A DNA stretch of 64,000 bases from SAR92 clade bacterium H455 (GTDB lineage Bacteria; Pseudomonadota; Gammaproteobacteria; Pseudomonadales; Porticoccaceae): assembly GCA_024802545.1 (NCBI GenBank), contig CP103416.1, forward strand, positions 496,001 to 560,000. The letters run 5' to 3'. Position numbers and translations under genes: made by a program. A model generated the notes under the pieces. That model had not been told where the DNA came from, searched no databases, and saw only the letters and a list, made by a program, of their open reading frames with translations. Positions within the stretch are counted from its first letter, which is position 1. Each line of letters opens with the position of its first letter. Shown here one piece after another: positions 18,948 to 33,341 of the stretch.

Positions 18948-20065
18948 ACTGATGCCTCTGGTGATTTTATTGGTCTTTCTCCTGCACTGTTTTTGAAAAT
19001 AAAATCAGCCAAAATCCCAGATAATTTTTCTGCTTTTGCCCACTGAAAGAAATGACCTCCGCCGATAGTGGCATGGGGCTGGCCTCTTGTGCCGGGCACC
19101 TTTGCCAGCCAGGGTTTTTCAAAGCCATTGGTGATCGGATCATTCCCCGCACCGACACATAAAAAAGGTTTTTCAAAGGTTTCAAAAAAATTCCAGGCCT
19201 TTTTCTGCGCCTCCAGTGATGGGTCGGGCATTATTGGCACCTGAGTGGGCATGGCGCGCACCGCCATTTTATACTCTGGGCTGGGGAAGGGCGCTTCATA
19301 GATAGTTGACAGCTGGCTGGGGAATGGCGATATTTTCCCCAGCCCGATTGTACGCATAAAAAGTTCTAGCGCCACAGATAACGGATTGCGTTTTTCCATC
19401 TGGGAGGAGCTAATAATACCAACTGGAACATCTTTGTTCTGCCAGGTATATTTTTGCCAATGGGAAAACTGTCTCAGGCTTGAGTATTTTTCGCCGCCCG
19501 CACCATCCATTTTTCTTATCTGTGCCATCATCGAAAACAGATTTAATTTTTTCTTGGAATTTCGAAATGCGGTGATTTCCTCAACAACTTCTTGAGGCAC
19601 ATCTGGACTGTAGGGTAATCCTGTATTACCAATCGCCACGCGGGCAAAGCGATCGCCGTTATCCGCCACCATGCGCAGGCCAATTAAGCCACCCCAGTCC
19701 TGACCAAAAAAAGTCAGGTTGGTAAAGTCATTTTGTACCAACCACTGATTCATCCAATCCACCTGGCGCTGGTATGTGTAATCTTCCCGCGCTGCAGGTT
19801 TATCGGATTTGCCATAGCCCGGCAGGTCAGGGGCAATTACGCGAATGCCGGCTTTGACTAAATGGGGAATCATGCGTGCGTAGAGATAGCTCCACACGGG
19901 CTGGCCGTGCATGCATAAAATAATTGGGCCATCTTTTGGGCCCTCATCTATATGGTGGATTCTAAGGTCGCTGCCGTCGTGGGTTTTGACTGTGGTGTAG
20001 TGAGGTGCAAAGGGATACTCGGGAATATTGTCAAAACAGTGGTCGGGGGTTCGTAGAATGTCCAT
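18944..20065 (-). CDS. Haloalkane dehalogenase-like alpha/beta hydrolase
   Basis: Predicted to hydrolyse carbon-halogen bonds (or an epoxide) through an aspartyl ester. The start at 20065 (MDILRTPDHCFDNIPEYPF) has GGAG placed well and matches the N-terminus of DhlA-type enzymes. Key residues: HGQPVWSYLY at 53-62, nucleophile Asp123 followed by Trp124 (GQDWGGLIG), an acidic residue in AGNDPIT, and His338 (GGGHFFQW). Trp124 after the nucleophile is a halide-binding feature. At 373 residues it is longer than the usual 300 to 310, mainly in the cap (about 155-240), and HGQP replaces the usual HGEP, so substrate and even halide use are uncertain. Confidence 0.75.
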   Translation of the reverse strand: MDILRTPDHCFDNIPEYPFAPHYTTVKTHDGSDLRIHHIDEGPKDGPIILCMHGQPVWSYLYARMIPHLVKAGIRVIAPDLPGYGKSDKPAAREDYTYQRQVDWMNQWLVQNDFTNLTFFGQDWGGLIGLRMVADNGDRFARVAIGNTGLPYSPDVPQEVVEEITAFRNSKKKLNLFSMMAQIRKMDGAGGEKYSSLRQFSHWQKYTWQNKDVPVGIISSSQMEKRNPLSVALELFMRTIGLGKISPFPSQLSTIYEAPFPSPEYKMAVRAMPTQVPIMPDPSLEAQKKAWNFFETFEKPFLCVGAGNDPITNGFEKPWLAKVPGTRGQPHATIGGGHFFQWAKAEKLSGILADFIFKNSAGERPIKSPEASV

Positions 20066-20418
20066 GCTTTCTCCGCGCATTTATAAGGCTTTTTTTTACA
20101 GGCTGTTTTTTTACAGGCTATTTTTAAAAGCCTGTTTTATTAGAGTCTATTTTCTAAGAGTATAACCCAGCAAAATTGAAGTGACATTTTTACTGACAAT
20201 ACATTTTTAGTCAGCCTGAGCAGGCTCCGTCTCTGCTTGTTTTGAGCGACGTTCCCTCGGGCCTGTCCAATGGGTCACAACTAAGCTTGCATGCTTTTGG
20301 TATGGGGAATAGTCTAAGCTAAGCAGTAACGATAAATCATAATAAATCCAAAGCAAAAAACTGACTTTGGTACTCTCAATAGCAGCTTATGTAGCGCATT
20401 TTACAAAAGGTAAATCAG
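20066..20418. other. Intergenic region between dehalogenase-like gene and thiolase gene
   Basis: About 350 bases with no gene. The left end is T-rich with GGCT(G)TTTTTTTACA repeats and a hairpin at 20113-20135; the rest should hold the two divergent promoters, but no confident boxes are seen. Confidence 0.55.
20113..20135 (-). promoter_or_regulatory. Hairpin in the leader of the dehalogenase-like gene
   Basis: ACAGGCT and AGCCTGT pair around a nine-base AT loop. On the minus strand it is followed by A runs, not T, so it is not a terminator for the genes below; it could be a leader hairpin or the debris of repeat expansion (see the T-rich repeats at 20086-20116). Confidence 0.3.
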
Positions 20419-21654
20419 ATGACTGAAGCATGGATTATTGACGCCTGTCGCACTCCTCGTGGCATTGGCAAGCCGGGCCGTGGAGCCCTCACTACTATTC
20501 ATCCCCAGCGACTGGGCTCCACTGTGCTCAAAGCACTGGCTGAGCGCAATAATGTCAACACGGCTGATGTCGCTGACGTGATTTGGGGCTGTAATGTTCA
20601 ACGTGGCCAAAATGGCAATGACATGGGGCGCATGTCGGCACTGGATGCCGGTTATGACGTGACCTCTAGTGGCGTCACCCTGGATCGTTTTTGCGGTTCC
20701 GGTATTACTACAGTGAATATGGCCGCCGCGTCGATTATGTCGGGCATGGAAGACTTAGTAGTAGCCGGTGGCTGTGAAATGATGTCGGGTTATGGTCTGC
20801 TCAGTGGCGAGATGTCGCCCTTTGTGGATTCAGGCAATGAGCATTTGCGCGAGATGTATGGTCAGTCCCACCAGGGTATCTGTGCCGATACCATCGCGAC
20901 GATTGAAGGTATCTCTCGAGAAGATCTCGATAGCCTCGCTGCCGTTAGCCAGGAGCGTGCCGCTCACGCCATCGCCAATGGTCATTTCGATAAGAGCTTA
21001 GTGCCTGTGTATCACGACGATGGCACTCTGGCATTGGATAAGGACGAGTTTCCGCGTCCCAGCACGACTCGTGAAAGCCTCAGTCAGCTAAATCCATCTT
21101 TTGAAAAAATAGCCCAGATGCCTCTCGATGAAGGGGGCGCTACTTACGCGAAGCTGATGGCAGTGAAATACCCTGATGTGAAAATCAAACATGTACATCA
21201 CGCCGGTAATTCCTCCGGTGTAGTAGACGGCGCCGCTGCAGTACTGTTGGCCTCACCTGATTATGCCACCAAGCAAGGGTGGAAGCCCCGCGCCAAGGTT
21301 TTAGCATTCTGTAATATGGGCGACTGCCCCTCACTGATGCTCAACGCACCAGTGCCTGCGGCCAAGCGCGTGCTAGCCAAAGCGGGTCTAGAAAAAGCCG
21401 ATATAGATCTCTGGGAAATCAATGAAGCCTTTGCTGTAGTTGCGGAGAAATTTATTCGTGATCTGGATCTGGATCGTGACACAGTGAATGTTAACGGCGG
21501 TGCTATGGCTCTGGGTCACCCTATAGGAGCAACCGGTGCCATGTTGATTGGCACTATGGTAGATGAGTTAGAGCGACGCCAACTGAAACGCGGCCTGATC
21601 ACTATGTGTGCCGGCGGCGGAATGGCGCCAGCGATTATTGTTGAACGTATGTAG
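20419..21654 (+). CDS. Acetyl-CoA acetyltransferase (thiolase)
   Basis: Thiolytic cleavage or Claisen condensation of acyl-CoA with acetyl-CoA. The 411-residue protein has catalytic Cys92 (DRFCGSGITT), the NEAFA loop, His367 (GHPIGATGA) and Cys397 (CAGGGMAPA), all correctly placed. The N-terminus MTEAWIIDACRTPRG is typical of thiolases seen in sterol, phenylacetate or fatty acid catabolism in proteobacteria. The next gene starts 11 bases later on the same strand, so both are probably co-transcribed. Confidence 0.94.
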   Translation: MTEAWIIDACRTPRGIGKPGRGALTTIHPQRLGSTVLKALAERNNVNTADVADVIWGCNVQRGQNGNDMGRMSALDAGYDVTSSGVTLDRFCGSGITTVNMAAASIMSGMEDLVVAGGCEMMSGYGLLSGEMSPFVDSGNEHLREMYGQSHQGICADTIATIEGISREDLDSLAAVSQERAAHAIANGHFDKSLVPVYHDDGTLALDKDEFPRPSTTRESLSQLNPSFEKIAQMPLDEGGATYAKLMAVKYPDVKIKHVHHAGNSSGVVDGAAAVLLASPDYATKQGWKPRAKVLAFCNMGDCPSLMLNAPVPAAKRVLAKAGLEKADIDLWEINEAFAVVAEKFIRDLDLDRDTVNVNGGAMALGHPIGATGAMLIGTMVDELERRQLKRGLITMCAGGGMAPAIIVERM

Positions 21655-21665
21655 GAGTTTTTGCC

Positions 21666-22496
21666 GTGAGTGAAGCACAGTCGTTTACACCAGTAGATGT
21701 GGCCATTCAGCCGCGCAATCGGCAGCATGATTTGGCCGAGGCCCTCAAAGGTGACTGGATGCGCAAAGATGTCTTTGCCACGGCCTGGTTCAATGCCATG
21801 TCGATCACCTTTCCTCTCGGCGAGCAGTTTTTTATTAACTCGGTGCGCCACTATCGCGATCGCATTAGCGATCCCAAGCTGCAAGAAGAGATGCGCCAGT
21901 TTTTTAGCCAAGAAGCGGTGCACCTGCGAGAACACCGGCGCTACAACGAAATGCTCTGTGCACTCCGCGGCTATGATCTGGAAAAACTCGAAGGTCCACT
22001 GCGTCGCCGCATGGGTTGGGTGAAAAAGAATGTACCGGCTCGGGAGCAGCTTGCTGGTACTGCGGCAGTGGAACATTTAACCGCGGTGTTAGCGGAGAAA
22101 GCCCTGGGAGATAGCGGTATCTTCGCCGATGCCGATCCCGCCATGCGAGACCTTTGGCAGTGGCATTCCGTGGAAGAGATGGAACATAAGGCCGTGGCCT
22201 TTGATGTCTATCGCGCTATAGGCGGCACAGAAAAAATGCGTCGCGCGGCGATGCGGCGCAGCACCTTGTTTTTGACTTGGGATATTCTCCATGGGGTGCG
22301 TCATATCTTGAAGTGCGACGGTGTGCTCTGGAGTCCGAAAGTCTGGTTCTCGGGAGTCCGCTTTTTGTTTGGTAAACAGGGCATATTGAAGGGCACCTGG
22401 GCACCCTACAAGGATTTCTTCCGTGAGGATTTTCATCCTTGGCAAGAGGACACCAGCCACTTGATTACCCAGTGGGAATTGCAGCAGAGTCATTAA
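21666..22496 (+). CDS. Predicted metal-dependent hydrolase (PF10118)
   Basis: A 276-residue cytoplasmic protein of the uncharacterised metal-dependent hydrolase family (COG3687). It starts at a GTG at 21666, with AGGAG upstream across the thiolase stop. Ferritin-like metal ligands are seen as QEAVHLREHRRYN near residue 78, VEHLTA near 135, and WHSVEEMEHKAVAFDVY near 165; these carboxylates and histidines could form a di-iron site. The family often lies with fatty acid or hydrocarbon metabolism genes; here it follows a thiolase. The chemistry is unknown. Confidence 0.87.
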   Translation: MSEAQSFTPVDVAIQPRNRQHDLAEALKGDWMRKDVFATAWFNAMSITFPLGEQFFINSVRHYRDRISDPKLQEEMRQFFSQEAVHLREHRRYNEMLCALRGYDLEKLEGPLRRRMGWVKKNVPAREQLAGTAAVEHLTAVLAEKALGDSGIFADADPAMRDLWQWHSVEEMEHKAVAFDVYRAIGGTEKMRRAAMRRSTLFLTWDILHGVRHILKCDGVLWSPKVWFSGVRFLFGKQGILKGTWAPYKDFFREDFHPWQEDTSHLITQWELQQSH

Positions 22497-22592
22497 GTTC
22501 TGCGAAAAATAGCTTAAAAGATAGAAAAGTCAGTAAAGAGGCGCGAAAAGACGCCACAATCAGTAACTTTAGTTGGCTGGGGAGTGAGTTAA

Positions 22593-23933
22593 ATGTTGAG
22601 TCTTAATTATCAAGGTAGGTTAGCTGCGCTTTTGCTGACATCGGCGGTGGCTACCGCTTTTATTCTGCCATCCTTTGCCGACAGCTACGAACCCGAAGCT
22701 CTAAAGAGCGGCCGCGTGGACCCCAGCCTGCATCTCCAGCAGGGCAGTAATCAGCAGGTCGCACAACAAATCAATGAGGTTATCTACAAGGCCACCGGCT
22801 TTGGCAATACCTTTATGGTGGTTACCAACGAAGGCAATGTGATTATCGATACTTCTTTGCCAGCCATGGCGCCCAAGCATAAGCAGCTATTGACCGCGGT
22901 AAGTGATGAGCCGGTACACTCGATTATTATTACCCATGGCCACGGCGATCACACCGGCGGTGTGGCACTGTGGCGAGAGCCCCAGACCAAGGTCATTGCC
23001 CAGCAGAATATGGTTGAGTTCCTCAACTATCAAAAGCGCTTGGGCAAACTATTTATGCAGCGCAACAGCGCGCAGTTTGGTTTTGATTTGATTGAAGAGG
23101 ACGAGCCGTCGTCCACAACCAGTCAGAGCGCTGGCGTCAATATGTTGCCCAACACCTTATTTGATCGGCGCCTGCACTTTACTCTTGGTAGCGAACAGTT
23201 TGAAATCCTCCACACCCCAGCGGAAACCTACGATGCTCTGACTGTGTGGATGCCGGAATACAAAGCCGCTTTTGTCGGCGATCTTTTTTACCGTTCATTT
23301 CCCAACATCTACACCTTGCGCGGTACCAAGCCGCGCTGGGCGCTGGACTATATAGAGTCGATTAATCGTGTGTTGGCGCTGCAGCCAGAAATTCTGCTGC
23401 CGAGCCACGGTGAGCCGATTTTCGGCAACGACAATATCCGTCGCGAGATGACCCGTTACCGCGACGCCATCCAATATGTCCATGACCAAACCGTTCAGGG
23501 CATGAATCAGGGCCGCGATGTATTTAGTCTGATGCGCGAGATTAAATTGCCTGCCGAGCTGGATGTGGGCGAAGCCTACGGCTGGGTCTCCTGGTCGGTG
23601 CGCGGTATCTATGAAGGCTATATGGGTTGGTTCGATGGCGATCCGGTGAATATGTATGCCCAGTCCCCTCAGTCGATCTACCCCGATTTGGTGGCCCTTG
23701 CCGGGGGCGCTGTAAAAGTTGTGGCCCTAGCGCAAGAGACTTTAGATGCAGGAGATGCGGTTAAGGCGCTGCTACTTATTGAGGCAGCCCTGGATGCGGA
23801 ACCTGATAACCGAGCTGTGCAGGCTATGCGTCTGCGGATATTGACTGCCCTGCGCCAAGTGTCAGGCAATCTCAATGAGTCGGGCTGGCTCAATCATGGT
23901 ATTAAACAAAGCAAGCGCCAGATGGCCCCTTGA
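22593..23933 (+). CDS. Exported metallo-beta-lactamase-fold hydrolase (alkyl sulfatase-like)
   Basis: A 446-residue protein with an N-terminal signal peptide (cleavage near FADSY, residue 30) and a metallo-beta-lactamase domain. The zinc motif THGHGDHTGG has His115, His117, Asp119 and His120; further ligands are in HTPAETYDAL, VGDLFY and LPSHGEP. The C-terminal part (from about residue 340) has TPR-like helices (DAGDAVKALLLIEAALDAEPDN), as in class III alkyl sulfatases (BDS1/YjcS type), but the sulfatase-specific C-terminal SCP2 domain is absent, so sulfate ester use is only a suggestion. Lies between a thiolase pair and the amidohydrolase gene. Confidence 0.83.
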   Translation: MLSLNYQGRLAALLLTSAVATAFILPSFADSYEPEALKSGRVDPSLHLQQGSNQQVAQQINEVIYKATGFGNTFMVVTNEGNVIIDTSLPAMAPKHKQLLTAVSDEPVHSIIITHGHGDHTGGVALWREPQTKVIAQQNMVEFLNYQKRLGKLFMQRNSAQFGFDLIEEDEPSSTTSQSAGVNMLPNTLFDRRLHFTLGSEQFEILHTPAETYDALTVWMPEYKAAFVGDLFYRSFPNIYTLRGTKPRWALDYIESINRVLALQPEILLPSHGEPIFGNDNIRREMTRYRDAIQYVHDQTVQGMNQGRDVFSLMREIKLPAELDVGEAYGWVSWSVRGIYEGYMGWFDGDPVNMYAQSPQSIYPDLVALAGGAVKVVALAQETLDAGDAVKALLLIEAALDAEPDNRAVQAMRLRILTALRQVSGNLNESGWLNHGIKQSKRQMAP

Positions 23934-24017
23934 TCAATTGGTACCCTCTTGTGGTAAGCAGCAAGGGTATTAGGCAACAGTAGGGAGCAGGCAACAGATA
24001 ACTGAAGAGAAAATCCT

Positions 24018-25952
24018 ATGAATCAATCAAAAGACTCTCAATTAGACGCTTTTCAAACCGACAGCGTTCCAGAGCAGGCCTTAAGCTTCGATACGCTAAT
24101 CACTAATGCCAAAGTGTTTAACAATGGCGAAGCCGCCGTGATTGAAGATGTCGCCATTGCCGGAGGGCGCATTGTTGCTCGCGGTCAAAGCCTTAATCAG
24201 GCCAGCGCTGGCAATGTAATCGATGGCAGTGGCCTGTGGTTGATGCCGGGGTTATTTGATATTCACACCCATTATGATTTGGAGCTCGAAGTGGCCCCGG
24301 GCCTTCCCGAGTCCACCCGTCATGGCACTACATCGGTAGTGATCGCTAACTGCAGTTTAGGGTTGGCCTTTGGCAACCAGCGTGATGGCACCAACGATCC
24401 GATTGTCAGCTGCTATGCCCGAGTGGAAAATATTCCCAAGTCCGTTCTCCGAAGCTGTGCTGATAACTGCACCTGGGACAATCCAAAGGATTATTTGGAG
24501 CATCTGGATACGCTTAAATTGGGCCCCAATGTGGCGGTGTTATTCCCTCATTCAATGTTGCGCATCGACACCATGGGTTTTGACGCCAGCGTCAGCCGCG
24601 ATCCAACCGCGGCCGAAATTGACACCATGAAAGATACCTTGCGCGATGCTCTAAAACAGGGCTATGTAGGACTCTCTACCGACGCACTGCCGTTCCATTA
24701 TCTGGCGGCACAGCCCCACTGTGACAAAACTATCCCCACTCAGTTTGCCAAATATGGCGAGATCAAACAGCTGGCGCAGGTGGTGCGCGAAGCCGGTGCT
24801 GTGTGGCAGGCAACGCCCCCTAAAGACAGTGTGATCGGCACCTTAAAAACTTTTTTGCTCACCAGTGGACGACTCTACGGCAAGCCATTGAAAACTACAG
24901 TAGTGGCGGCATTGGATATTGCCAATAACTGGCGCATCTCCGGTCTGGCCAAACGCTTGGCTAGCGTATTGAACTCGCGCCTTATTCAGGGTGACTTTTA
25001 TATGCAGGCACTGGGTGCGCCCTTTAAGGTTTGGTCCGATGGCGCGGTAACACCGCTTGCGGAAGAGATTCCCGAGCTGCGCCGTCTCAATGAAACGGAT
25101 CTAGAAGACCGTGCCGAACGTCTCGGTATTCTCAATGATCCGGACTATGTTAAAGCCTTTAAAGCCATGTGGATGAAGGGCAAACAGGGCTGGAGTTTGG
25201 CGCGCTTAAAACGCAAAGTTAATCTCGAGGACTACGCCTTTAACCGCACACTGGCGGATATGGATGTGGTGCGCTGCCCGCAGCAGAACTGGCAGGGCAT
25301 GACCTTTCAGGCGCTGTTTGAGCGTATTTTGGCGTTCAAAGCTGGCGAGTTAAAAGAGACCATCAGTCAGAAGGAGCGGGATCTGCTTGAAGCGGACTTT
25401 CTCTGGATTGTCGATGAGGGCGACTTTATGCTGCAGATGCTGAGAAGCTTTGACAATGACCTGAGCTGGAGCACCGTCACCGCCAACCGCGATATGAAAA
25501 CCGTCCGGGAATTGCTGATGCACCCCAATTTGCTGCCCGGCTTTAACGATAGCGGCGCCCACCTGACCAATATGGCTTTTTATGATGTCAATCTGCGTAG
25601 TCTGAAATTGGCAGCTCAGGGCGGCGAAGCCGATGTCAGTTATATGGTCAAGCGCCTGACTAAAGATCCGGCCGATGTCTTTGGTGTCGAAGGTGGCACT
25701 ATTGATCTGGGTGATGTGGCTGACCTGATTTTAATCGACCCGAAAAAGCTCGCCGAATACGATGGCGAGAGTAAGGTGCAGCGTGTTTATCGTGAAGAAT
25801 TCAGTCACGAGCAGTTGGTTAATCGCTCTGATGATGTGGTCAGTTTGGTGATGATTGGTGGTCACACTGCCTGGGAAAACAATGCCCTGTCCAACAACTT
25901 GGGTCACATCCCTATGGGTCGACTACTGCGCTCTGTCTCGTCAATCAAATAG
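24018..25952 (+). CDS. Amidohydrolase of the N-acyl-D-amino-acid deacylase type
   Basis: A 644-residue member of the amidohydrolase_3 family. The metal motif DIHTHYD places His83 and His85; the conserved GLSTDALPF, a possible carboxylated or metal-binding segment after CSLGLAFG, and the late NDSGAHLTNM are present, with the C-terminal ADLILIDPKKL composite beta domain. Family members deacylate N-acyl-D-Asp/Glu or act as dihydropyrimidinase-like hydrolases. No signal peptide is seen. The gene precedes an IclR regulator in the same direction with a short gap and could belong to its regulon. Confidence 0.85.
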   Translation: MNQSKDSQLDAFQTDSVPEQALSFDTLITNAKVFNNGEAAVIEDVAIAGGRIVARGQSLNQASAGNVIDGSGLWLMPGLFDIHTHYDLELEVAPGLPESTRHGTTSVVIANCSLGLAFGNQRDGTNDPIVSCYARVENIPKSVLRSCADNCTWDNPKDYLEHLDTLKLGPNVAVLFPHSMLRIDTMGFDASVSRDPTAAEIDTMKDTLRDALKQGYVGLSTDALPFHYLAAQPHCDKTIPTQFAKYGEIKQLAQVVREAGAVWQATPPKDSVIGTLKTFLLTSGRLYGKPLKTTVVAALDIANNWRISGLAKRLASVLNSRLIQGDFYMQALGAPFKVWSDGAVTPLAEEIPELRRLNETDLEDRAERLGILNDPDYVKAFKAMWMKGKQGWSLARLKRKVNLEDYAFNRTLADMDVVRCPQQNWQGMTFQALFERILAFKAGELKETISQKERDLLEADFLWIVDEGDFMLQMLRSFDNDLSWSTVTANRDMKTVRELLMHPNLLPGFNDSGAHLTNMAFYDVNLRSLKLAAQGGEADVSYMVKRLTKDPADVFGVEGGTIDLGDVADLILIDPKKLAEYDGESKVQRVYREEFSHEQLVNRSDDVVSLVMIGGHTAWENNALSNNLGHIPMGRLLRSVSSIK

Positions 25953-26063
25953 CCCAAAGCAACGCCACTGAGGTGATGCAAGCCGATGTTGAGTCGGCTT
26001 GTGGTTGCGGCGGTGGCCGCGTATTCTCTCAGCCTGCAAAAACCCCTATTTAATGAAGTCCGA

Positions 26064-26888
26064 ATGGAAAATAGCATGGTTAAGAGAACCGATTCCGAAT
26101 ATCTGAGTACCCTTGAGCGTGGCTTGCGAGTGATGCGCTCATTTAGCGCGCAGCGCTCTGAAATGACGATTTCGCAAGTTGCTGTCGAGACCGACCTCAA
26201 CCCTGCCGTGGTGCGCCGCTGTCTTCACACTCTGGAGCAGCTCGGTTATATTGCCAAGCGCGATAATCTATTTTCGTTGACCGCTGAAGTGCTGACCTTT
26301 GGTACTCACTATGTCGAATCGGCCCACCTCGAAACCGCTGTGCGGCCCCACCTGCAGCGGGTTCGCGATATGATGGGTGACAGTTCGTCGATGGCGCTGC
26401 TGTCTCGCGGTGAGGTGCTCTACCTGGTGCATGTTTCGACCGATCGCCGGGTGCAGCTCGATGCCAGCGTCGGAACACGCTTTCCGGCCTACAGCACTTC
26501 AATGGGTAAAGTGTTATTGACCGGGTTGTCGCTGGCTGAAATTGATCGTTACTGTCAACGCATTGGTTTTGTACAAACCACTGACAACACCATTACCGAG
26601 CCGTCGCAACTCAAAGACGTGCTGCGTCAGGTGTCGGAGAAGGGCTATGCCACGGCACTGGATGAGTTGGACTACGGTATTGTCTCAGTGGCGCTGCCGA
26701 TAACCGACGAGCTTGGCCGAGTGATTGCCGCCATCAACTGTTCGACCTCGACATCCCGTGTGTCACTGGATGATATGGTGGCAACACGGCTGCCAGTGTT
26801 GCGCGAAGCGGCCGCCGCGATTGGCGCAGAGATTCGCAATAGTCGTGCACTGGCGCGCGCCATGACCATTTCATCAATTCCTGGATAA
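26064..26888 (+). CDS. IclR-family transcriptional regulator
   Basis: One-component regulator of the PcaR/PobR/PcaU type, 274 residues from the ATG at 26064 (MENSMVKRTDSEYL); an ATG at 26076 is also possible. The N-terminal winged helix-turn-helix (YLSTLERGLRVMRSF, then ISQVAVETDLNPAVVRRCLHTLE) precedes the IclR effector-binding domain, which has the typical RVQLDASVGTRFPAYSTSMGKVLL and GYATALDELDYGIVSVALP segments. Such proteins commonly sense aromatic acids and activate or repress nearby catabolic genes. Two IclR-like operator sites lie at 28531-28565, between the two divergent operons next to this gene. Confidence 0.92.
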   Translation: MENSMVKRTDSEYLSTLERGLRVMRSFSAQRSEMTISQVAVETDLNPAVVRRCLHTLEQLGYIAKRDNLFSLTAEVLTFGTHYVESAHLETAVRPHLQRVRDMMGDSSSMALLSRGEVLYLVHVSTDRRVQLDASVGTRFPAYSTSMGKVLLTGLSLAEIDRYCQRIGFVQTTDNTITEPSQLKDVLRQVSEKGYATALDELDYGIVSVALPITDELGRVIAAINCSTSTSRVSLDDMVATRLPVLREAAAAIGAEIRNSRALARAMTISSIPG

Positions 26889-26917
26889 GCAGCGCTTACC
26901 TAATCGCAGACAACGGC

Positions 26918-27706
26918 CTACGCTATAAATGCTTCAATCGCCTGAGCCACCGCTTTGCTGTGGCTCAAGACAGCCATATGACCGGCCCCAGCAATCTCCA
27001 GCGCACGATGCTCGCTGCCACTGGCAACAAACTGCTCAGCCAGTTCGACGCGTGGCGGCGCCTCATACTCACCGTTGATAAATAGCGTCGGGATCTGTTG
27101 CTGTAGCAATTGCGCATAGACATTGCTGGCAAAGTGGAAGTCATGACCGGCCTCGACGCTTAGGTCCCTGGCGCAATAGCTCTGAGTAATATCATGCAAG
27201 TGCGCACTTGCACCATCGTTCATGCCGAGACGACAATAGGGGTGCTGCAACCACTGCCGTCTCAGTTCGCTTAACTCTCCGGCCAGCGCCAGCGACTTAA
27301 AGTAGGGGAGATCAATGGCATGATGATCAATTCTCTCGGCGCTAAAACCATCCATCACACCACCGCAAATAATCAACTTATGCACTAACGATGGTGCGTA
27401 ACTGGCGAACCGCGCAGCAATGCGCGCGCCCTGACTAAAGCCCAGCACATGAAGCTGTTTCACGTCGATTCGTTGGGCCAGTTCGGCGACATCGAGATGC
27501 TCTTGGCTTAAGTCAGGCTGCAGCGGCGAGGCGCCATAACCGCGTCGGTCAAAGCTGTAGACATCGATGTTTTTGTTCAGGGCGTTGCGCAATTGATCAA
27601 AAATGCGTTGATCCTGTGCCCAGCCATGAATGAGCAGTAGCGCTGGACCGGATGAATTTCCCGATCGCTGTAATGTTGGCAGTGTGCCGAGTTGAGAGGG
27701 GCTCAT
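26918..27706 (-). CDS. Alpha/beta hydrolase (Ser nucleophile)
   Basis: A 262-residue esterase, lactonase or thioesterase-like enzyme. HGWAQDQRIFDQL near residue 26 is reminiscent of BioH and 3-oxoadipate enol-lactonase-type proteins; the nucleophile elbow GFSQG is near residue 93 and the catalytic His is in AGAGHMAVLSH. Its ATG overlaps the stop of the citryl-CoA-lyase-like gene (ATGA), so the two form an operon. In the context of the CoA ligase and VOC dioxygenase genes it may hydrolyse a lactone or ring-cleavage product. Confidence 0.82.
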   Translation of the reverse strand: MSPSQLGTLPTLQRSGNSSGPALLLIHGWAQDQRIFDQLRNALNKNIDVYSFDRRGYGASPLQPDLSQEHLDVAELAQRIDVKQLHVLGFSQGARIAARFASYAPSLVHKLIICGGVMDGFSAERIDHHAIDLPYFKSLALAGELSELRRQWLQHPYCRLGMNDGASAHLHDITQSYCARDLSVEAGHDFHFASNVYAQLLQQQIPTLFINGEYEAPPRVELAEQFVASGSEHRALEIAGAGHMAVLSHSKAVAQAIEAFIA

Positions 27707-28473
27707 AGGGCGTCAGGGGTATAGTCCACGGCGTCTTGCGCCCCTTGCCACATAGCGTGCGCAGCGGGATTATTCATCTCTTCGGCAATATGGCCAACCA
27801 GCCCAGCACAGCGTGCGGTGAGCACAATGCCGCGCATCATCTGCGATGGAATACCGGCCTCGGCCAGGACTGCACCAATCGCGGCACTAATATTAGTGAC
27901 CAGTGTTTTACCGGTCTGCTGGCACAGAGTTTGCTCTAGTAGACGCATCAGAGCGAGATATTCACCGCTACTGCCGGAGTTTTCGGCCAGACTTAGTAGG
28001 CGTTCTACTCGCGGATCGGTCTCTTTATGAATTGGGTGACCAAAACCCGGTAAGGGTTTTTTCTGAGTGCGGTGTTGCTGAATAATCGCCACCGCCTCAG
28101 CCTCGGCATCCTCTGCAGCATGCATTTGCTCAAGCAATTGGCCGCAGGCGCTAGAGGTTCCAGCATAGCGATCGCCAACACCGAGCAGCCCAGCGGCGAT
28201 GGCACCCTGGTAGCTCTCTGGCGCGCCGTAATGGGTCAGTCGTGCTGCCACTGCTGAGGGCACTAGCCCGTGCTCCATAATGGTTACCATGACACTATTA
28301 ATTAGTTCAACCTGCACGGGGTTTGGCTGGGTGCCTAAGGATTGGTAAAGGAAGGCGGTCACAAAATCCATTTTGCCGATAAAGTCCGTTACCAGGTTTT
28401 TTCCTCTCACCTCAATCGCATCTGCACTGAAGCCGCAGATGCTGGTTGTACCGCGCGCTGAATTGTCGACCAT
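27703..28473 (-). CDS. Citryl-CoA lyase / citrate-synthase-like protein
   Basis: A short (256 residues) citrate-synthase-fold enzyme that has only the catalytic core, like stand-alone citryl-CoA lyases. The start at 28473 (MVDNSARGTTSICGF) follows GGGGAGA at good spacing; a start 102 bases earlier lacks this. Residues matching the citrate synthase site are MEHGLVPSAVAARL near residue 75 and LPGFGHPIHKETDPR near residue 150, with GLVGHIAEE near the end. It should make or break a carbon-carbon bond between acetyl-CoA-like and oxo-acid-like parts. The promoter region carries two IclR-like palindromes. The natural substrate is not known. Confidence 0.85.
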   Translation of the reverse strand: MVDNSARGTTSICGFSADAIEVRGKNLVTDFIGKMDFVTAFLYQSLGTQPNPVQVELINSVMVTIMEHGLVPSAVAARLTHYGAPESYQGAIAAGLLGVGDRYAGTSSACGQLLEQMHAAEDAEAEAVAIIQQHRTQKKPLPGFGHPIHKETDPRVERLLSLAENSGSSGEYLALMRLLEQTLCQQTGKTLVTNISAAIGAVLAEAGIPSQMMRGIVLTARCAGLVGHIAEEMNNPAAHAMWQGAQDAVDYTPDAL

Positions 28474-28530
28474 TTTATTCTCCCCAATGTGAACCAAATT
28501 TGCGTTCTTAGAATAACACAGGCATAGTGG

Positions 28531-28545
28531 TTTCGTATAACGAAA
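28531..28545. promoter_or_regulatory. IclR-like operator, site 1
   Basis: TTTCG-TATAA-CGAAA, an inverted repeat of the form often found for IclR-family regulators. Centre at 28538, 65 bases before the lyase-like start and 77 before the receptor start. Confidence 0.7.
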
Positions 28546-28548
28546 ACG

Positions 28549-28565
28549 TTTTCGGTATGCGAAAA
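28549..28565. promoter_or_regulatory. IclR-like operator, site 2
   Basis: TTTTCG-GTATG-CGAAAA, a second palindrome with the same five-base spacing. Its centre at 28557 is 19 bases from the centre of site 1, so two dimers could bind on nearly the same face of the helix. The join between sites is itself a 14-base palindrome, CGAAAACGTTTTCG (28541-28554). Confidence 0.7.
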
Positions 28566-28614
28566 CATTCGTCAAAAAATAAAAAAAATATAATAATTAA
28601 ATAGAGGCGTTGTT

Positions 28615-30837
28615 ATGAAGTATTTTTCGCAATCTGTTCTAGCTGCGGCAATCTTAGTTCCAATCTATATCGTGCCGGTGCAAGCCCAGCCAACATTAGA
28701 GGAAATTGTCGTCTCTGCGCGCAAGCGTGCTGAGTCGCTCGAAGATAGTCCGATCTCGGCAACGGCCTTTACCGAAGACGCAATCCGTCAGGCCGGTATC
28801 CAGTCGGCGCAGGATTTCGTCAACCTGACACCAAATGTGACCCTGGTGCAGACCCAGAATGCGGGTAATTCATTCCTTAATATTCGCGGCGTATCTCAGG
28901 CGCGCAACAGTGAAATGAGTGCTGCTGTCTTGATTGATGGCGTGCTGATGTCTAATCCGGCTCAACTTAACCAGCAGCTGTTTGATATTGAGCAAGTTGA
29001 AGTGTTGCGTGGTCCACAGGGTGCGCTCTATGGCCGCAATGCGATTGGTGGCGCCATTACCATCACTACCAAAGCGCCTTCGGACGACGTTGAGGGTGTA
29101 ATAGAAGTGGGTGCAGGTTCCGGCGGTTCCAGCAACCTGCGCGGCTCGATCTCTGGGCCGGTTGGCGATAGCGACAATGTCCACTTTCGCCTGTCGGGCT
29201 CTTATACGGATACCGACGGTCACTTGAAAAATACCTACCTTAACCAGATGGCCGATCCGGCCACAGACCAGTCAATGAGATTCCGTCTCAACTGGGATGT
29301 CAGCGACAGCATGTCGGTTGACTTTAGACTCAGCCATTCGGCTCTCGAAACCCAGGCGCTCTATTTTGTGATCGACGCCGAGGCGGACGACACCGATCTG
29401 GATATTCGAGTCAATAACCCAGGTAACAATGAACGTAATTTCCTCAGCTCGTCTTTAAAAGTGGAGTGGGACACCGACGGTGGCACCTGGACCTCAATTA
29501 CTGCCTATGACGATCTCGACGAAGTGCTATCTGGCGATCAGTTTAGCTTTACTCCCCGCGCCGAGTCCTACTTTAACTACGACGCTTTCGGCCAGTTTAT
29601 CAACAGTCTCACCGGCGACAGCGTCACCGATTTAAGCCAAAATCAGTATCTCGAGGTTGAGTCGCTGTCTCAGGAAATTCGCTACACGTCCCCTGACGAT
29701 CAAGCGCTCAAGTATATTGTTGGCGCCTATGCCATCTCAACGGACCGTTATATTTCCACCGGCAACCAGATTGACCGCGGCTTGGGTGTTTTCGATGTCT
29801 ATAAAGATTTCCGTCCCTCGGTTTTTGTCGATCCCACTAACATATCGCCACAGCTGAATATTCTTGCTGATACGCAGGATAACTTTGCCTGGGCTGTATT
29901 TGGTCAAGTGTCAATGGATTTGAGCGAGACCGTCGAGCTGTCGGCGTCGGTGCGCTATGACCGTGACACCCGCGAAAATACCACGGCGACACCAGAGCTT
30001 TACAACACCTCTGGTCTCGATCTGCAGTTTGGTGACGCGCGCAAAGAGTCTTGGTCAGAAGTGCAGCCTAAATTGACTCTGCGCTGGCAGCCTAAAGAAG
30101 ATACAACCTATTACGCAGACTACAGTCGCGGTTTCAGAAGTGGTGGTTTTAATCAGACCGGCGTAGGCGAAGCTGTGCCAACGGCAGGCGTCTCGGATGT
30201 GTTCGATGCCCAGGTTGCACAAACCTTTGAGGTGGGAGCCAAGTCGTTCTTTATGGATCGTCGCATCAGTGCGTCGCTGGCTCTCTATCGCACTGATTTC
30301 GACAATGCCTACTTCTTCCTCTTTGACCCGGGCACGAGCACCCAGAACCTCGGCACCATCGATGAAGTAACCTACAGCGGATTGGAGCTGGAAGCCAATG
30401 CACTGATCAGTGATAGTCTCAGCGCCTACATTGGCATAGGCATCACCGATTCAGAGATTAATAAGGCGGCCGATCCAAGCCATGTTGGCAATCAAGCGCC
30501 ACTGGTTTCCGAGACCACGATGAACATCGGTGCCACCTATCGCCGCAATACTGGCCTGTTCGGTGGCGCAGCTGACTTTATCGGTCGCTTTGACTATCAG
30601 TACACCGGTGAAACCTGGTGGGAGCCGGGCAATGTCACCAGTCGTAGCCCAGTTACTGTCGTTGATTTCCGTGTTGGCTTTGAAGCGGAAGGCGATTGGT
30701 CACTGATGTTGTGGAGCAAAAATGCCTTTGATGAGGAATACAATACTGAATTCTCTCCAGGTCCTGCGCCCGGTTACAATTTCCTATGGAAAGCACTGCC
30801 CAATCGTTGGGGCGTTGAATTTATGAAGCGTTTTTAA
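28615..30837 (+). CDS. TonB-dependent outer membrane receptor
   Basis: Outer membrane transporter of 740 residues with a signal peptide ending near VQAQ and the plug start LEEIVVSARKRAESLEDSP. Plug hallmarks are NIRGVSQARNSEMSAAVLIDGV and VEVLRGPQGALYGRNAIGGAITI. The C-terminal strand ends WGVEFMKRF with Phe last. It is the first gene of an operon with a VOC dioxygenase, a flavoprotein and a CoA ligase, so it probably imports the compound these enzymes degrade. Two IclR-type palindromes lie 50 to 85 bases upstream. Confidence 0.93.
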   Translation: MKYFSQSVLAAAILVPIYIVPVQAQPTLEEIVVSARKRAESLEDSPISATAFTEDAIRQAGIQSAQDFVNLTPNVTLVQTQNAGNSFLNIRGVSQARNSEMSAAVLIDGVLMSNPAQLNQQLFDIEQVEVLRGPQGALYGRNAIGGAITITTKAPSDDVEGVIEVGAGSGGSSNLRGSISGPVGDSDNVHFRLSGSYTDTDGHLKNTYLNQMADPATDQSMRFRLNWDVSDSMSVDFRLSHSALETQALYFVIDAEADDTDLDIRVNNPGNNERNFLSSSLKVEWDTDGGTWTSITAYDDLDEVLSGDQFSFTPRAESYFNYDAFGQFINSLTGDSVTDLSQNQYLEVESLSQEIRYTSPDDQALKYIVGAYAISTDRYISTGNQIDRGLGVFDVYKDFRPSVFVDPTNISPQLNILADTQDNFAWAVFGQVSMDLSETVELSASVRYDRDTRENTTATPELYNTSGLDLQFGDARKESWSEVQPKLTLRWQPKEDTTYYADYSRGFRSGGFNQTGVGEAVPTAGVSDVFDAQVAQTFEVGAKSFFMDRRISASLALYRTDFDNAYFFLFDPGTSTQNLGTIDEVTYSGLELEANALISDSLSAYIGIGITDSEINKAADPSHVGNQAPLVSETTMNIGATYRRNTGLFGGAADFIGRFDYQYTGETWWEPGNVTSRSPVTVVDFRVGFEAEGDWSLMLWSKNAFDEEYNTEFSPGPAPGYNFLWKALPNRWGVEFMKRF

Positions 30838-30854
30838 GTTAGGGGAAATAATCG

Positions 30855-31397
30855 ATGACTGCTCAATTACAAATAAAAAGTGCGCTGCACCACAATGCAT
30901 ATGTCACCAACGATATGCCAGCGGTGCGCGAATTTTACGAAGAGGTAATCGGCTTCGAGCTCGCTGCCACCTGGTGTGAAAAAGCTGATCTGTTTGGTAA
31001 AGAGCGTGTGTACATGCACTGCTTTTTCGATATTGGCAATGGCGCGGCACTGGCATTCTTCCAGTTCCGCGACGCCGAAGATCACGCTGAGTTTGGACCG
31101 GAATTAGCGCACTCGGCCTTCCGCCATTTAGCCATGGTGGTCGATAAAGAAACTCAGGATGGTATTCGTGATCGTCTGGCGGCAGCAGGTTATACGGCAC
31201 CAGACACCTACATACTCGATCATGGTTACTGCTATTCGCTGTATGTCAAAGATCCTGCAGGGCTGCTGATAGAGTTTACCGTTGACCACGACGATGCTGA
31301 GGCAATCAATGCACAGAAAAAAATTAATGCACACGCCGATCTGGCACGCTGGTTAGGTGGCGATCACAGGCCAAACAATGAAAATTTTCATCGCTAA
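30855..31397 (+). CDS. VOC-family protein, probable extradiol-type dioxygenase
   Basis: A 180-residue vicinal-oxygen-chelate (glyoxalase/dioxygenase) protein. The 2-His-1-carboxylate set is visible: His12/13 (LHHNAYV), His91 (RHLAMVV) and Glu140 (GLLIEFTVD), with a Tyr-Cys-Tyr stretch before the last strand. A single-module VOC protein of this length could be an iron or manganese dioxygenase acting as a dimer, or a glyoxalase-like isomerase. It starts 17 bases after the receptor gene and 9 bases before the flavoprotein gene, in a catabolic operon, which favours a ring-cleaving or quinol-processing role. Confidence 0.82.
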   Translation: MTAQLQIKSALHHNAYVTNDMPAVREFYEEVIGFELAATWCEKADLFGKERVYMHCFFDIGNGAALAFFQFRDAEDHAEFGPELAHSAFRHLAMVVDKETQDGIRDRLAAAGYTAPDTYILDHGYCYSLYVKDPAGLLIEFTVDHDDAEAINAQKKINAHADLARWLGGDHRPNNENFHR

Positions 31398-31406
31398 GGA
31401 AAAATT

Positions 31407-31985
31407 ATGAGAGTAGCAATTGCATATCATTCAGGCTACGGCCACACCGAGCGCCAAGCGCAGGCCGTCGCCGCTGGCGTCAATGCCGTCGAGGGTGTCG
31501 CAGCAGATCTAGTGCCGGTAGAGGATTTGGTCGATGCTGAGTCATCCGCTTGGGCTGCACTGGATAAAGCCGACGCGATTATATTCGGGTCGCCCACCTA
31601 TATGGGTTCAGCCAGTGCCGCTTTTAAAGGGTTTATGGATGCCACCTCATCGCGCTGGATGGAACAGCGCTGGGCTTACAAAATTGCCGCCGGTTTCACT
31701 AACTCCGGTTCGCAAAATGGCGATAAACAAAACACGCTGGTGCAATTTTGCACTCTCGCGGCACAGCACGGCATGGTTTGGGTCAATCTCAATTTGATGC
31801 CCGGCAACAATCATTCTGCGGGATCAAAAGACGATCTCAACCAATTGGGTGCGTCGCTGGGCGCAATGGCGCAATCCAATGTTGATGCCGGCGCCGACAC
31901 AGCGCCAGGCAAGTCGGATCTCGACACCGCCGCAGCTCTGGGCTCGAATGTCGCCAACGCCGTGCTCAGGTGGAACAAACCATAA
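31407..31985 (+). CDS. Flavodoxin-like NAD(P)H:quinone reductase (WrbA-type)
   Basis: A 192-residue flavodoxin-fold protein. The FMN phosphate loop is AYHSGYGHTERQA near residue 6, the isoalloxazine loop GSPTYMGSASAAFKGFMD near 60, and the GFTNSGSQNGDKQNTL segment near 95 is typical of NADPH-dependent FMN reductases of the WrbA/PnpB type, which turn benzoquinones into hydroquinones. Lies between the VOC dioxygenase and the CoA ligase, a setting that suits removal of a quinone formed in a ring-oxidation step. Confidence 0.87.
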   Translation: MRVAIAYHSGYGHTERQAQAVAAGVNAVEGVAADLVPVEDLVDAESSAWAALDKADAIIFGSPTYMGSASAAFKGFMDATSSRWMEQRWAYKIAAGFTNSGSQNGDKQNTLVQFCTLAAQHGMVWVNLNLMPGNNHSAGSKDDLNQLGASLGAMAQSNVDAGADTAPGKSDLDTAAALGSNVANAVLRWNKP

Positions 31986-32021
31986 CACTGCGGTTTTACC
32001 AAACAGCTAAAGGGTAACAAT

Positions 32022-33341
32022 ATGATGTACGACGCTGCCGTGGAAACACGGCCGGTAGAGGAGCAATTTGTCCGCGATAATGAGCTGTTTAAACGCCAGC
32101 TGGACTATTTGTTACACCACTCCGACTTTTACAAAGCCAAGTTGGCCGAGGCTGGAATCACCAGTGCGCGGGATATCAACGGCCTGGAAGATATTGCCAA
32201 GCTACCGTTTACTGAAAAAGACGAAATCCGCGCAACCCAAGCCAGCTGCCCGCCCTATGGTGCACATCTGGCTGTGGACCCCGCTCAATTGCGCCGCGTC
32301 TTTAGCACCAGCGGCACCACTGGTGTGCCCTGCTACCTGGGGTTGACTCAGTCTGACCTGGATATGTATGCGACCAATGTGGCGCGCGGATACACCGCTG
32401 CAGGGTTCAGGCCTGGCCAAGCAGTAGTGGTCGGCTTCAATGCTGGCCCCTTTGTCGCCGGTGGCGTCTATTACGGCTTTGATAAGATTGGCTGCAATGT
32501 GATTCCGGTTGGTACCGGTAACACCGAGCGCATGGTAACGGCGATACAGCGTCTCGGTGCCACGGGTGTAAGCTGTACGCCTTCATATGCTCTGTATTTG
32601 ATTGAATGGTGCCGGGATAATGGCATTGCCCCAGAATCGCTTGGCTTGAAAAATATGATTACTGCCGGCGAGCCTGGTGGTGGCGATCCGATGATTCGAG
32701 GTCAGATTGAATCTGCACTGGGTTGCCGAGTGCGCGAGTCTATGGGTATCGGCGATATTTCCCTGTCGGTGTGGGCCGAAGACGACGACGGCAATGGCAT
32801 GAGCTTTATGGCCAGAGACTTCGTTCATGTGGAGCTGATTGACAGTGACTCTGGACAACCCATTCCATGGGTTGATGGTGCTCAGGGTGAGTTGGTCTAT
32901 ACGGCACTGCAGCGCCAATCGATGCCGTTGCTACGCTTTAGAAGCCGCGATCATGTGGTGGTCAATATGAACGAAAATCCCACTGGTCGAACCGGTCCGC
33001 GAATCAGATGTATTGGCCGCACTGACGATATGTTGATCGTGCGTGGGGTTAACTTCTTTCCGACGGCACTGCGTTCAGTACTGCAAAATCACGGGCAGCA
33101 GGTTTCTGGGATGTTTCAGGTTCAACCTTCCGTCAAAGGTGTCTCGCAACCATCTCCACTGCCTATCTCGATTGAACTAGGGAAGGGCGTCGGCGCACCG
33201 CCAAGCGATCTGGCCGACAGTATCAAGCGCGAGATCAGAGAGCGTTTGTTAGTTTCCTCGGCGATCACAATGGTGAACTATGGCTCCATGCCTCGTGAAA
33301 CCTACAAGTCGAAGCTGGTGGATTACAGCCAGGCAGTCTGA
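32022..33341 (+). CDS. Phenylacetate-CoA ligase-like AMP-forming ligase
   Basis: Adenylate-forming CoA ligase of the PaaK group, 439 residues. The P-loop motif STSGTTG is at 95-101, then GLTQSDLDMYA, and later GEPGGGDPMIRG, RESMGIGDIS and RTDDMLIVRGVNFFP, which resemble PaaK motifs for adenylate and CoA binding; MPRETYKSK supplies a C-terminal lysine. It should activate an aryl or aryl-alkyl carboxylic acid with ATP and CoA. Last gene of the operon; a strong terminator follows. The exact acid is unknown. Confidence 0.88.
   Translation: MMYDAAVETRPVEEQFVRDNELFKRQLDYLLHHSDFYKAKLAEAGITSARDINGLEDIAKLPFTEKDEIRATQASCPPYGAHLAVDPAQLRRVFSTSGTTGVPCYLGLTQSDLDMYATNVARGYTAAGFRPGQAVVVGFNAGPFVAGGVYYGFDKIGCNVIPVGTGNTERMVTAIQRLGATGVSCTPSYALYLIEWCRDNGIAPESLGLKNMITAGEPGGGDPMIRGQIESALGCRVRESMGIGDISLSVWAEDDDGNGMSFMARDFVHVELIDSDSGQPIPWVDGAQGELVYTALQRQSMPLLRFRSRDHVVVNMNENPTGRTGPRIRCIGRTDDMLIVRGVNFFPTALRSVLQNHGQQVSGMFQVQPSVKGVSQPSPLPISIELGKGVGAPPSDLADSIKREIRERLLVSSAITMVNYGSMPRETYKSKLVDYSQAV

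Follow-up and report, generated by a model that had tools for sequence, protein, structure and literature searches.

Do the divergent genes around an IclR-type regulator in SAR92 clade bacterium H455 belong to one catabolic pathway, and on what class of compound would it act? A preliminary description of the DNA analysed here (a stretch of 64,000 nucleotides, the window) had proposed eight genes and, between the divergent operons, two IclR-like palindromes. Each of the eight genes was confirmed as an open frame of the family named there, two of them with corrected starts, and both palindromes proved to be real. The features are as follows:

24018-25952, plus strand: amidohydrolase (open frame, left of the core)
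26076-26888, plus strand (open frame 25986-26888): IclR-family regulator, PcaR/PcaU/PobR-like (PF01614, 5e-36; PF09339, 1e-13)
26918-27706, minus strand: alpha/beta hydrolase (PF12697, 7e-19)
27703-28473, minus strand (open frame 27703-28575): citrate-synthase-fold, citryl-CoA-lyase-like protein (NF004868, 296.9 bits; cut-off 193)
28532-28563, no strand: predicted tandem operator of the IclR type (a pair of TTCG-N5-CGAA palindromes with a centre-to-centre spacing of 19 bases)
28615-30837, plus strand: TonB-dependent outer-membrane receptor (TBDR; PF00593, 5e-35; PF07715, 7e-21)
30855-31397, plus strand: single-domain VOC protein (PF00903, 1e-11)
31407-31985, plus strand: WrbA-like flavodoxin-fold protein (NF002999, 89.6 bits; cut-off 141; PDB 3d7n, 1e-44)
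32022-33341, plus strand: PaaK-like acyl-CoA ligase (adenylate-forming; TIGR02155, 231.7 bits; cut-off 646.3; PDB 2y4o, 1e-54)

For the lyase-like gene, the most likely start is the ATG at 28473 rather than 28575, because GGGGAG lies upstream and relatives have a methionine near the same place. The IclR start is probably near 26076, since the proteins of relatives begin at the corresponding residue. The rightward genes are separated by 17 (TBDR-VOC), 9 (VOC-WrbA) and 36 bases (WrbA-PaaK), and the lyase-like and hydrolase genes overlap by 4 bases. The core consists of the IclR, hydrolase, lyase-like, TonB receptor, VOC, WrbA-like and PaaK-like genes (26076-33341).

A genome scan with an alignment of the VOC protein found 16 loci. 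Co-occurrence in relatives had been set beforehand as the point on which the proposal could fail; among the 16 VOC loci, the lyase-like, IclR and WrbA-type genes each occur in 13 and the PaaK-like gene in 11. The TonB receptor is at least 42% identical in 14, and the weakly conserved alpha/beta hydrolase (30–69% identity) is present in 11; it was not found at L039, L041 or L046, and the WrbA gene is missing at L045. At L043, the receptor and VOC genes are present, and the lyase, ligase, hydrolase, IclR and WrbA-like genes have no match. The order IclR>, <hydrolase, <lyase, TBDR>, VOC>, WrbA>, PaaK> is kept in 12 of the 14 gammaproteobacterial loci, some of which lack single genes, and spans Porticoccaceae, Halieaceae, Woeseiaceae, K189A, Lysobacterales, Chromatiales and other records. 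In alphaproteobacterial relatives, a family III CoA-transferase replaces the PaaK-like ligase. VOC homologues of 53–55% identity are found in three genomes (G244, G264 and G283) without the lyase gene, and two distant VOC relatives sit with a CoA-transferase and an HMG-CoA-lyase-like protein. The proposal withstood this check, and the data support one conserved gene cluster tied to IclR, which has a TonB receptor of its own as well as an aromatic-type dioxygenase and occurs in marine bacteria and others.

The preliminary description is borne out in part: its single cluster stands for this core, but the amidohydrolase included in it does not belong: it occurs at one of the 16 loci, the same-genus locus. 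The other window neighbours tested (thiolase, PF10118, metallo-beta-lactamase-fold and haloalkane-dehalogenase-like genes, and the next gene rightward) show no recurrence outside L034. The amidohydrolase and the first four of these neighbours, all leftward and each at no more than one of the 16 loci, were dropped as pathway members.

The two palindromes, TTCGTATAACGAA at 28532 and TTCGGTATGCGAA at 28551, form the pattern TTCG-N5-CGAA-N6-TTCG-N5-CGAA, which lies 52–83 nt before the TBDR start and 59–90 nt before the lyase-like start. A lone palindrome is not rare (three in the window against 0.88 expected, a number reached in 4 of 100 shuffles). The pair is rare, with one occurrence at up to two mismatches against 0.02 expected; at that threshold the window holds no second copy, by the amidohydrolase gene or elsewhere. 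In each of three whole genomes the perfect tandem operator occurs once; only perfect matches count here, because at up to two mismatches a reversed control pattern (3, 3 and 2 matches) outnumbers the operator (2, 1 and 1). The tandem operator is present in 13 of the 16 VOC loci, exactly the 13 that carry both the lyase and IclR genes, and 100 Markov shuffles produced none; the three others are poor negatives, as they include L037 (a 5.4 kb contig) and L048 (which begins within the receptor gene). The same tandem site is found in Niveispirillum (L057) and on an Aminobacter MSH1 plasmid (L050). IclR-family tandem sites are reported 18–22 nt apart in the accessible part of PMC8222616, and the 19-nt spacing in the window, upstream of both operons, falls within this range. 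Binding of IclR to this site, like the sign of any control that it exerts, is presumed.

The VOC residues H13, H91, E140, H123 and Y130 are invariant among 20 aligned sequences. We take H13, H91 and E140 to be the 2-His-1-Glu metal site and H123 and Y130 to be the catalytic His and Tyr, roles assigned from BphC-type enzymes. With both the metal site and the catalytic pair, the protein passes the residue test for a type I extradiol (VOC) dioxygenase, and we propose that it is a putative extradiol or hydroquinone-type ring-cleavage dioxygenase.

The lyase-like protein had been called a citryl-CoA-lyase-like enzyme. Subfamily score and fold bear out this name: the protein passes the NCBIfam 'citryl-CoA lyase' subfamily NF004868, and the top fold match of its model (pLDDT 74) is the citryl-CoA lyase 6hxp (TM 0.69). 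The chemistry is another matter, because two residues of the citrate-synthase triad are missing: the catalytic His is replaced by Tyr103 (HGG to YAG) and the Asp by Ser196 (NVD to NIS), and His146 and DPR are retained. None of 20 aligned lyase-like sequences has His or Asp at these two positions, which we take to correspond to the acetyl-CoA-enolising H274 and D375 of pig citrate synthase. For this reason the name is no guide to the reaction of the protein. A defence-system reading was dropped, as neither the lyase-like nor the VOC protein has a PADLOC match.

The WrbA-like protein falls below the cut-off of the WrbA equivalog NF002999, and its best PDB match, 3d7n, is WrbA-like; a full WrbA (343.5 bits with NF002999) adjoins the VOC gene in L048. 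We propose that the window protein is a putative NAD(P)H:quinone reductase. The PaaK-like ligase likewise fails the phenylacetate-CoA ligase equivalog TIGR02155. For the alpha/beta hydrolase, hydrolysis of the ring-cleavage product is proposed.

Taken together, the core is, by a modest margin over even, best explained as a conserved catabolic regulon for a quinone- or hydroquinone-type aromatic compound, with uptake and reduction followed by hydroquinone-type opening of the ring, hydrolysis, activation with CoA and cleavage of a C-C bond. The compound would be imported by the TonB receptor, and its hydroquinone form would be made or maintained by the WrbA-like flavoprotein. The VOC enzyme would then open the ring next to a hydroxyl, and the hydrolase would act on the product. 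The remaining acid may be converted into a CoA thioester by the PaaK-like ligase, or by the CoA-transferase in alphaproteobacteria, and the thioester into central metabolites through cleavage or other reshaping by the citrate-synthase-fold protein. IclR would sense a pathway compound and, by way of the intervening tandem operator, control the two divergent operons. Two FAD-monooxygenase queries (one from L055, one from L027; E <= 1e-6) returned no hydroquinone-making monooxygenase from the window or the 16 loci, and a single MaoC query returned no hydratase. That the lyase-like protein lacks residues normally used by its proposed chemistry counts against this explanation.

Genes of MetE-like zinc enzymes accompany the cluster at 12 of the 16 VOC loci, and the zinc ligands of MetE-type methyltransferases (HxC, E and C) are present in nine aligned companion proteins. 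A search with a positive control found no MetE-like genes in the genome of the window; G000 and G159 lack the family, and G221 and 10 of 14 control genomes have it. L045, which has no MetE-like genes, carries a VanA/Rieske O-demethylase-like gene after the ligase gene. Elsewhere, the lyase family occurs with a VOC protein, an FAD monooxygenase and CoA activation in Rhodococcus BX2, and with LigB and CoA activation in Aminobacter MSH1. At five of a further 12 lyase loci from the order (L025 and L028–L031), its neighbours are CoA activation and an intradiol dioxygenase, and some other members sit with beta-oxidation-type genes. The neighbours of weaker relatives were examined in 10 of the 38 plasmid records matching the VOC protein, 5 of the 158 matching the lyase and 3 of the 372 matching MetE; some records are unannotated, and the neighbours yielded substrate classes and no single compound. 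A more specific version of the regulon is offered tentatively, as it is probably not correct: an undescribed pathway for methoxylated or methylated quinones or hydroquinones, in which folate-free MetE-like demethylation in most carriers and VOC ring opening would be followed by a new C-C cleavage by the citrate-synthase-fold enzyme without His and Asp, the lyase module having been joined to VOC, LigB and intradiol enzymes across lineages.

A catechol- or flavonoid-type substrate, cleaved in its A-ring as in the fde and ifc pathways, with the WrbA-like protein merely guarding against quinone by-products, appears doubtful. According to the accessible part of PMC11069340, an FAD monooxygenase comes first in naringenin (fde) and isoflavone (ifc) degradation, and the A-ring is then the target of a glyoxalase-type protein, FdeC/IfcB; the ifc cluster holds an alpha/beta hydrolase gene whose disruption left daidzein degradation unaffected. 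VOC genes do sit with FAD monooxygenase and hydrolase genes in L055, L064 and L067. However, the FAD monooxygenase that marks fde and ifc is the enzyme for which the two queries had no match in the window and the 16 loci, the VOC protein of the window is partnered by lyase-like, PaaK-like and WrbA-like proteins and a TonB receptor, and its best solved match is titled a homogentisate dioxygenase, FdeC/IfcB being likened to it by description and not by sequence.

Unlikely, in our judgement, is a role in clearing toxic quinones by the reductase, VOC protein and hydrolase instead of in growth. Operons of the mhq type, for which quinone detoxification is the proposed role, hold a reductase, a dioxygenase and a hydrolase together, the set that the core recalls. 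With a TonB receptor at the same operator as a CoA ligase and a C-C-lyase-like protein, the cluster points instead to uptake and full breakdown, and an mhq operon has itself been linked to lignin biaryl degradation (accessible part of PMC12673573). That the genes form a loose catabolic assembly with no single pathway is very improbable and, as far as the core goes, largely refuted. The core is incomplete at several loci, and the amidohydrolase and the genes to its left recur in the genus only, but the core order and operator recur across many families.

No title or abstract opening in the literature searched, in which subscription journals are thinly covered, described this gene combination. 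A guess from a single genome has become a defined regulon of marine and other bacteria, traceable by its distinctive operator. The cluster ties core MetE-like proteins to aromatic catabolism and suggests that part of the so-called citryl-CoA lyases work downstream of aromatic ring cleavage instead of on citryl-CoA. If the substrate is an algal or lignin quinone, marine carbon turnover would gain a further route.

Several known systems resemble parts of the cluster. The best PDB match of the VOC protein, by sequence and by fold, is 9u42 from Acinetobacter, also a single-domain VOC protein and a homogentisate 1,2-dioxygenase by its database title, from which the function is taken, as the paper behind it was not found. 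It carries the same residues at positions H13, H91, H123, Y130 and E140 (TM 0.72 on the query), but its 24% identity is too low for transferring the substrate, and, unlike the homogentisate route, the cluster has no gene for fumarylacetoacetate hydrolase or maleylacetoacetate isomerase. Hydrogenobacter citryl-CoA lyase (6hxp) shares the fold, the His of the GxGH motif and DPR with the lyase-like protein and differs in the His and Asp described above. The PcaU/PcaR/PobR regulators resemble the window IclR in sequence and, as far as the accessible part of PMC8222616 goes, in their TTCG/CGA-type operator, whereas the cluster has no beta-ketoadipate genes and its IclR scores under the cut-off of the subfamily model TIGR02431 (249.3 against 284.75 bits). 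On plasmid pUSP2 of Aminobacter sp. MSH1, LigB replaces the VOC protein, a CaiB-type CoA-transferase replaces PaaK, a TRAP transporter is present, and, unlike in the window, no TonB receptor is annotated in the stretch. That plasmid nevertheless shares with the window IclR and the same tandem operator, a citryl-CoA-lyase-like protein, CoA activation and a ring-cleavage dioxygenase, and it also carries a MetE/UROD-like protein and an FMN reductase.

All open reading frames and family assignments of the preliminary description were found in the window, whose host genome (G000) is a single 2.96 Mb contig. The features that matter here are as follows:

26076–33341, core cluster of IclR, alpha/beta hydrolase, lyase-like, TonB receptor, VOC, WrbA-like and PaaK-like genes
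28473, most likely start of the lyase-like gene (ATG, with GGGGAG preceding)
28532–28563, candidate IclR site between the divergent operons, TTCG-N5-CGAA-N6-TTCG-N5-CGAA
28615, start of the TonB receptor gene, 141 bases from that of the lyase-like gene

Elsewhere in the window, an open reading frame at 8282–9103 reads by eye as an IS3-type transposase OrfB. Another at 50258–51619, whose C-terminus carries several MDHSA repeat units (by eye), adjoins an RND-pump-like frame, and the pair looks like a metal efflux system.

Three aligned VOC proteins served as the query for a scan of species genomes; 88 pattern matches yielded 16 confirmed loci, in which genes were counted using the window proteins as queries (E ≤ 1e-15). 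Besides VOC itself (16 of 16, by construction of the locus set), the TonB receptor was matched in 15 loci, 14 of them likely orthologues because the match in L045 is just 26% identical and lies elsewhere in the locus. The IclR, lyase-like and WrbA-like genes were each found in 13 loci (the last with only 33–35% identity in L048 and L049), and the hydrolase and PaaK-like genes in 11 each; absences are upper limits, since contig ends cut several loci, L037, L041 and L048 among them. Missing genes aside, 12 of the 14 gammaproteobacterial loci share one gene order, L037 and L043 being the exceptions; in L045 the receptor and WrbA are absent from their usual place. A polysaccharide-deacetylase-like gene adjoins VOC in L037 and lies about 4 kb away in L043 (40–43% to an L061 protein). 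The PaaK-like match at L044:6234–7551 is split in two, each piece in a different frame, which may reflect a disrupted gene or an assembly error.

The amidohydrolase, formerly counted as a pathway member, occurred in one of the 16 loci and is dropped. The other left-hand neighbours were no commoner (thiolase, PF10118 and dehalogenase-like, one locus each; MBL-fold, none). These genes belong to a block at 18006–25952 (alpha/beta hydrolase, haloalkane-dehalogenase-like, thiolase, PF10118, MBL-fold and a 644-aa amidohydrolase); the same-genus locus L020/L034 has all of them apart from the MBL-fold gene, and none of the tested genes was found at any other of the 16 VOC loci.

Within the order (293 genomes), just three, G000, G159 and G221, hold a lyase-like protein of at least 60% identity, and the same three alone hold a VOC protein of at least 75% identity. 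The chance of this overlap is about 2e-7, with identity limits chosen post hoc and with G000 and G159 congeneric. Three genomes of another family possessed VOC proteins of 53–55% identity and no lyase at E ≤ 1e-20. In L082, L083 and L084, VOC proteins of 53–55% identity were seen without a lyase-like gene, the first adjoining a carboxylesterase gene. The closest named carrier is a Porticoccaceae MAG (L034, the assembly of G159; VOC identity 94%). Two of the five sampled genomes of the window's own genus carry the cluster, which is thus patchy there.

The earlier label "citryl-CoA-lyase-like" holds for the subfamily score, which exceeds the NCBIfam cut-off, and for the predicted fold, which is like that of citryl-CoA lyase, but not for the catalytic motifs: relative to the citryl-CoA lyase structure 6hxp, HGG reads YAG and NVD reads NIS. 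We therefore do not classify this protein as a citryl-CoA lyase. An alignment of 20 relatives restored neither the histidine nor the aspartate, while the GxGH histidine, the DPR arginine and one further arginine were invariant. Distant homologues in the same order (L014–L018, 25–30% identity) retain HGG and NID, marking the motif loss as a subfamily trait.

Twelve other lyase loci of the order were retrieved with long flanks. In five (L025, L028, L029, L030 and L031) the lyase-like gene is accompanied by a LysR regulator, a family III CoA-transferase, an intradiol dioxygenase and a TRAP transporter, a conserved set that is likely another ring-cleavage pathway using the same lyase family. L027 has a FAD monooxygenase close by, as well as a VOC protein of 36% identity. 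In Rhodococcus BX2 a family member lies with a FAD monooxygenase and a VOC enzyme, and in Aminobacter MSH1 with LigB. Ring cleavage is the setting of only part of the family, as the neighbours are of beta-oxidation type in L023, L026 and L051 (the last without a ring-cleaving enzyme), include acyl-CoA dehydrogenase, MaoC and another VOC protein in L052, and were not recognised in L022. Distant VOC relatives (32–36%) in L066 and L086 stand beside a family III CoA-transferase and an HMG-CoA-lyase-like protein (with LeuC/LeuD also in L066), which suggests a C–C lyase acting at the same stage.

In the VOC protein, His13, His91, Glu140, His123 and Tyr130 are invariant across 20 aligned sequences (identity down to 28%), and their presumed roles are those of the corresponding residues in type I extradiol enzymes. 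Among solved chains, 9u42 is the closest both by sequence (profile 9e-16) and by fold (model pLDDT 86). Its entry bears the title homogentisate 1,2-dioxygenase from Acinetobacter and the molecule name "Glyoxalase"; a literature search for a paper on it found none. The WrbA-like protein scores under the family cut-off, its nearest solved chain being a WrbA-like protein, and a full WrbA adjoins the VOC gene in L048. The PaaK-like protein is an adenylating ligase; a family III CoA-transferase replaces it beside the lyase gene in L049, L057, L050 and L055.

The reading that employs every conserved core gene is an order in which the compound would be imported, reduced as a quinone, cleaved as a hydroquinone-type ring, hydrolysed, activated with CoA and finally split at a C–C bond. 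We lean slightly towards a quinone/hydroquinone substrate class together with this order. Neither the window nor the 16 loci gave a match for an entry monooxygenase (two FAD-monooxygenase queries, E ≤ 1e-6) or a hydratase (one MaoC query). A literature search of titles and abstract starts, covering few subscription papers, returned no description of this gene set.

Companion genes were counted as well. With queries drawn from L035 and L038 themselves, MetE-like 1 was found in 8 of the 16 loci, MetE-like 2 in 10 and either in 12. Both kinds are core MetE-type proteins, and the nine that were aligned have the HxC/E/C zinc ligands; according to PMC7857596, folate-independent core MetE-type enzymes can be methionine synthases. 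G000 and G159 lack the family; the same search did match the copy in G221 (the assembly of L035) and gave hits in 10 of 14 control genomes. In L045, which gave no MetE-like hits, the gene immediately following the PaaK-like one (12096–13154) encodes a Rieske oxygenase whose C-terminal domain is of the vanillate O-demethylase type; no relative of it was found in the other 15 loci or the window. Both observations would be consistent with a substrate that is methylated in most carriers but, in the window's genus, either non-methylated or handled differently.

The two IclR-like palindromes reported between the operons, TTCGTATAACGAA and TTCGGTATGCGAA, are indeed present in the 141-base gap, their centres 19 bases apart. 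Each of the 13 VOC loci that combine lyase and IclR has the tandem site, and it was not found in the remaining three; of these only L043 is a fair negative, because the L037 contig measures just 5.4 kb and L048 starts within the receptor gene. None arose in 100 Markov shuffles of the 267 kb. G000, G159 and G221 each hold one perfect site, at this promoter (matches on both strands count once, the pattern being its own reverse complement). G000 has one additional match with two mismatches; as a control, the reversed pattern matched 3, 3 and 2 times per strand in the three genomes at up to two mismatches, so that looser matches are meaningless and only the perfect sites carry the argument. L049 and L057 have two sites each, and the Aminobacter MSH1 plasmid (L050) one, adjoining its IclR gene; neither the Rhodococcus locus L055 nor any of the intradiol loci (L025, L028–L031) has one. 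The core cluster is very probably one regulon. In PMC8222616, tandem sites 18–22 nt apart are described for the IclR family; the spacing of the putative operator fits this range, and its half-sites are similar to the PcaU/PcaR type.
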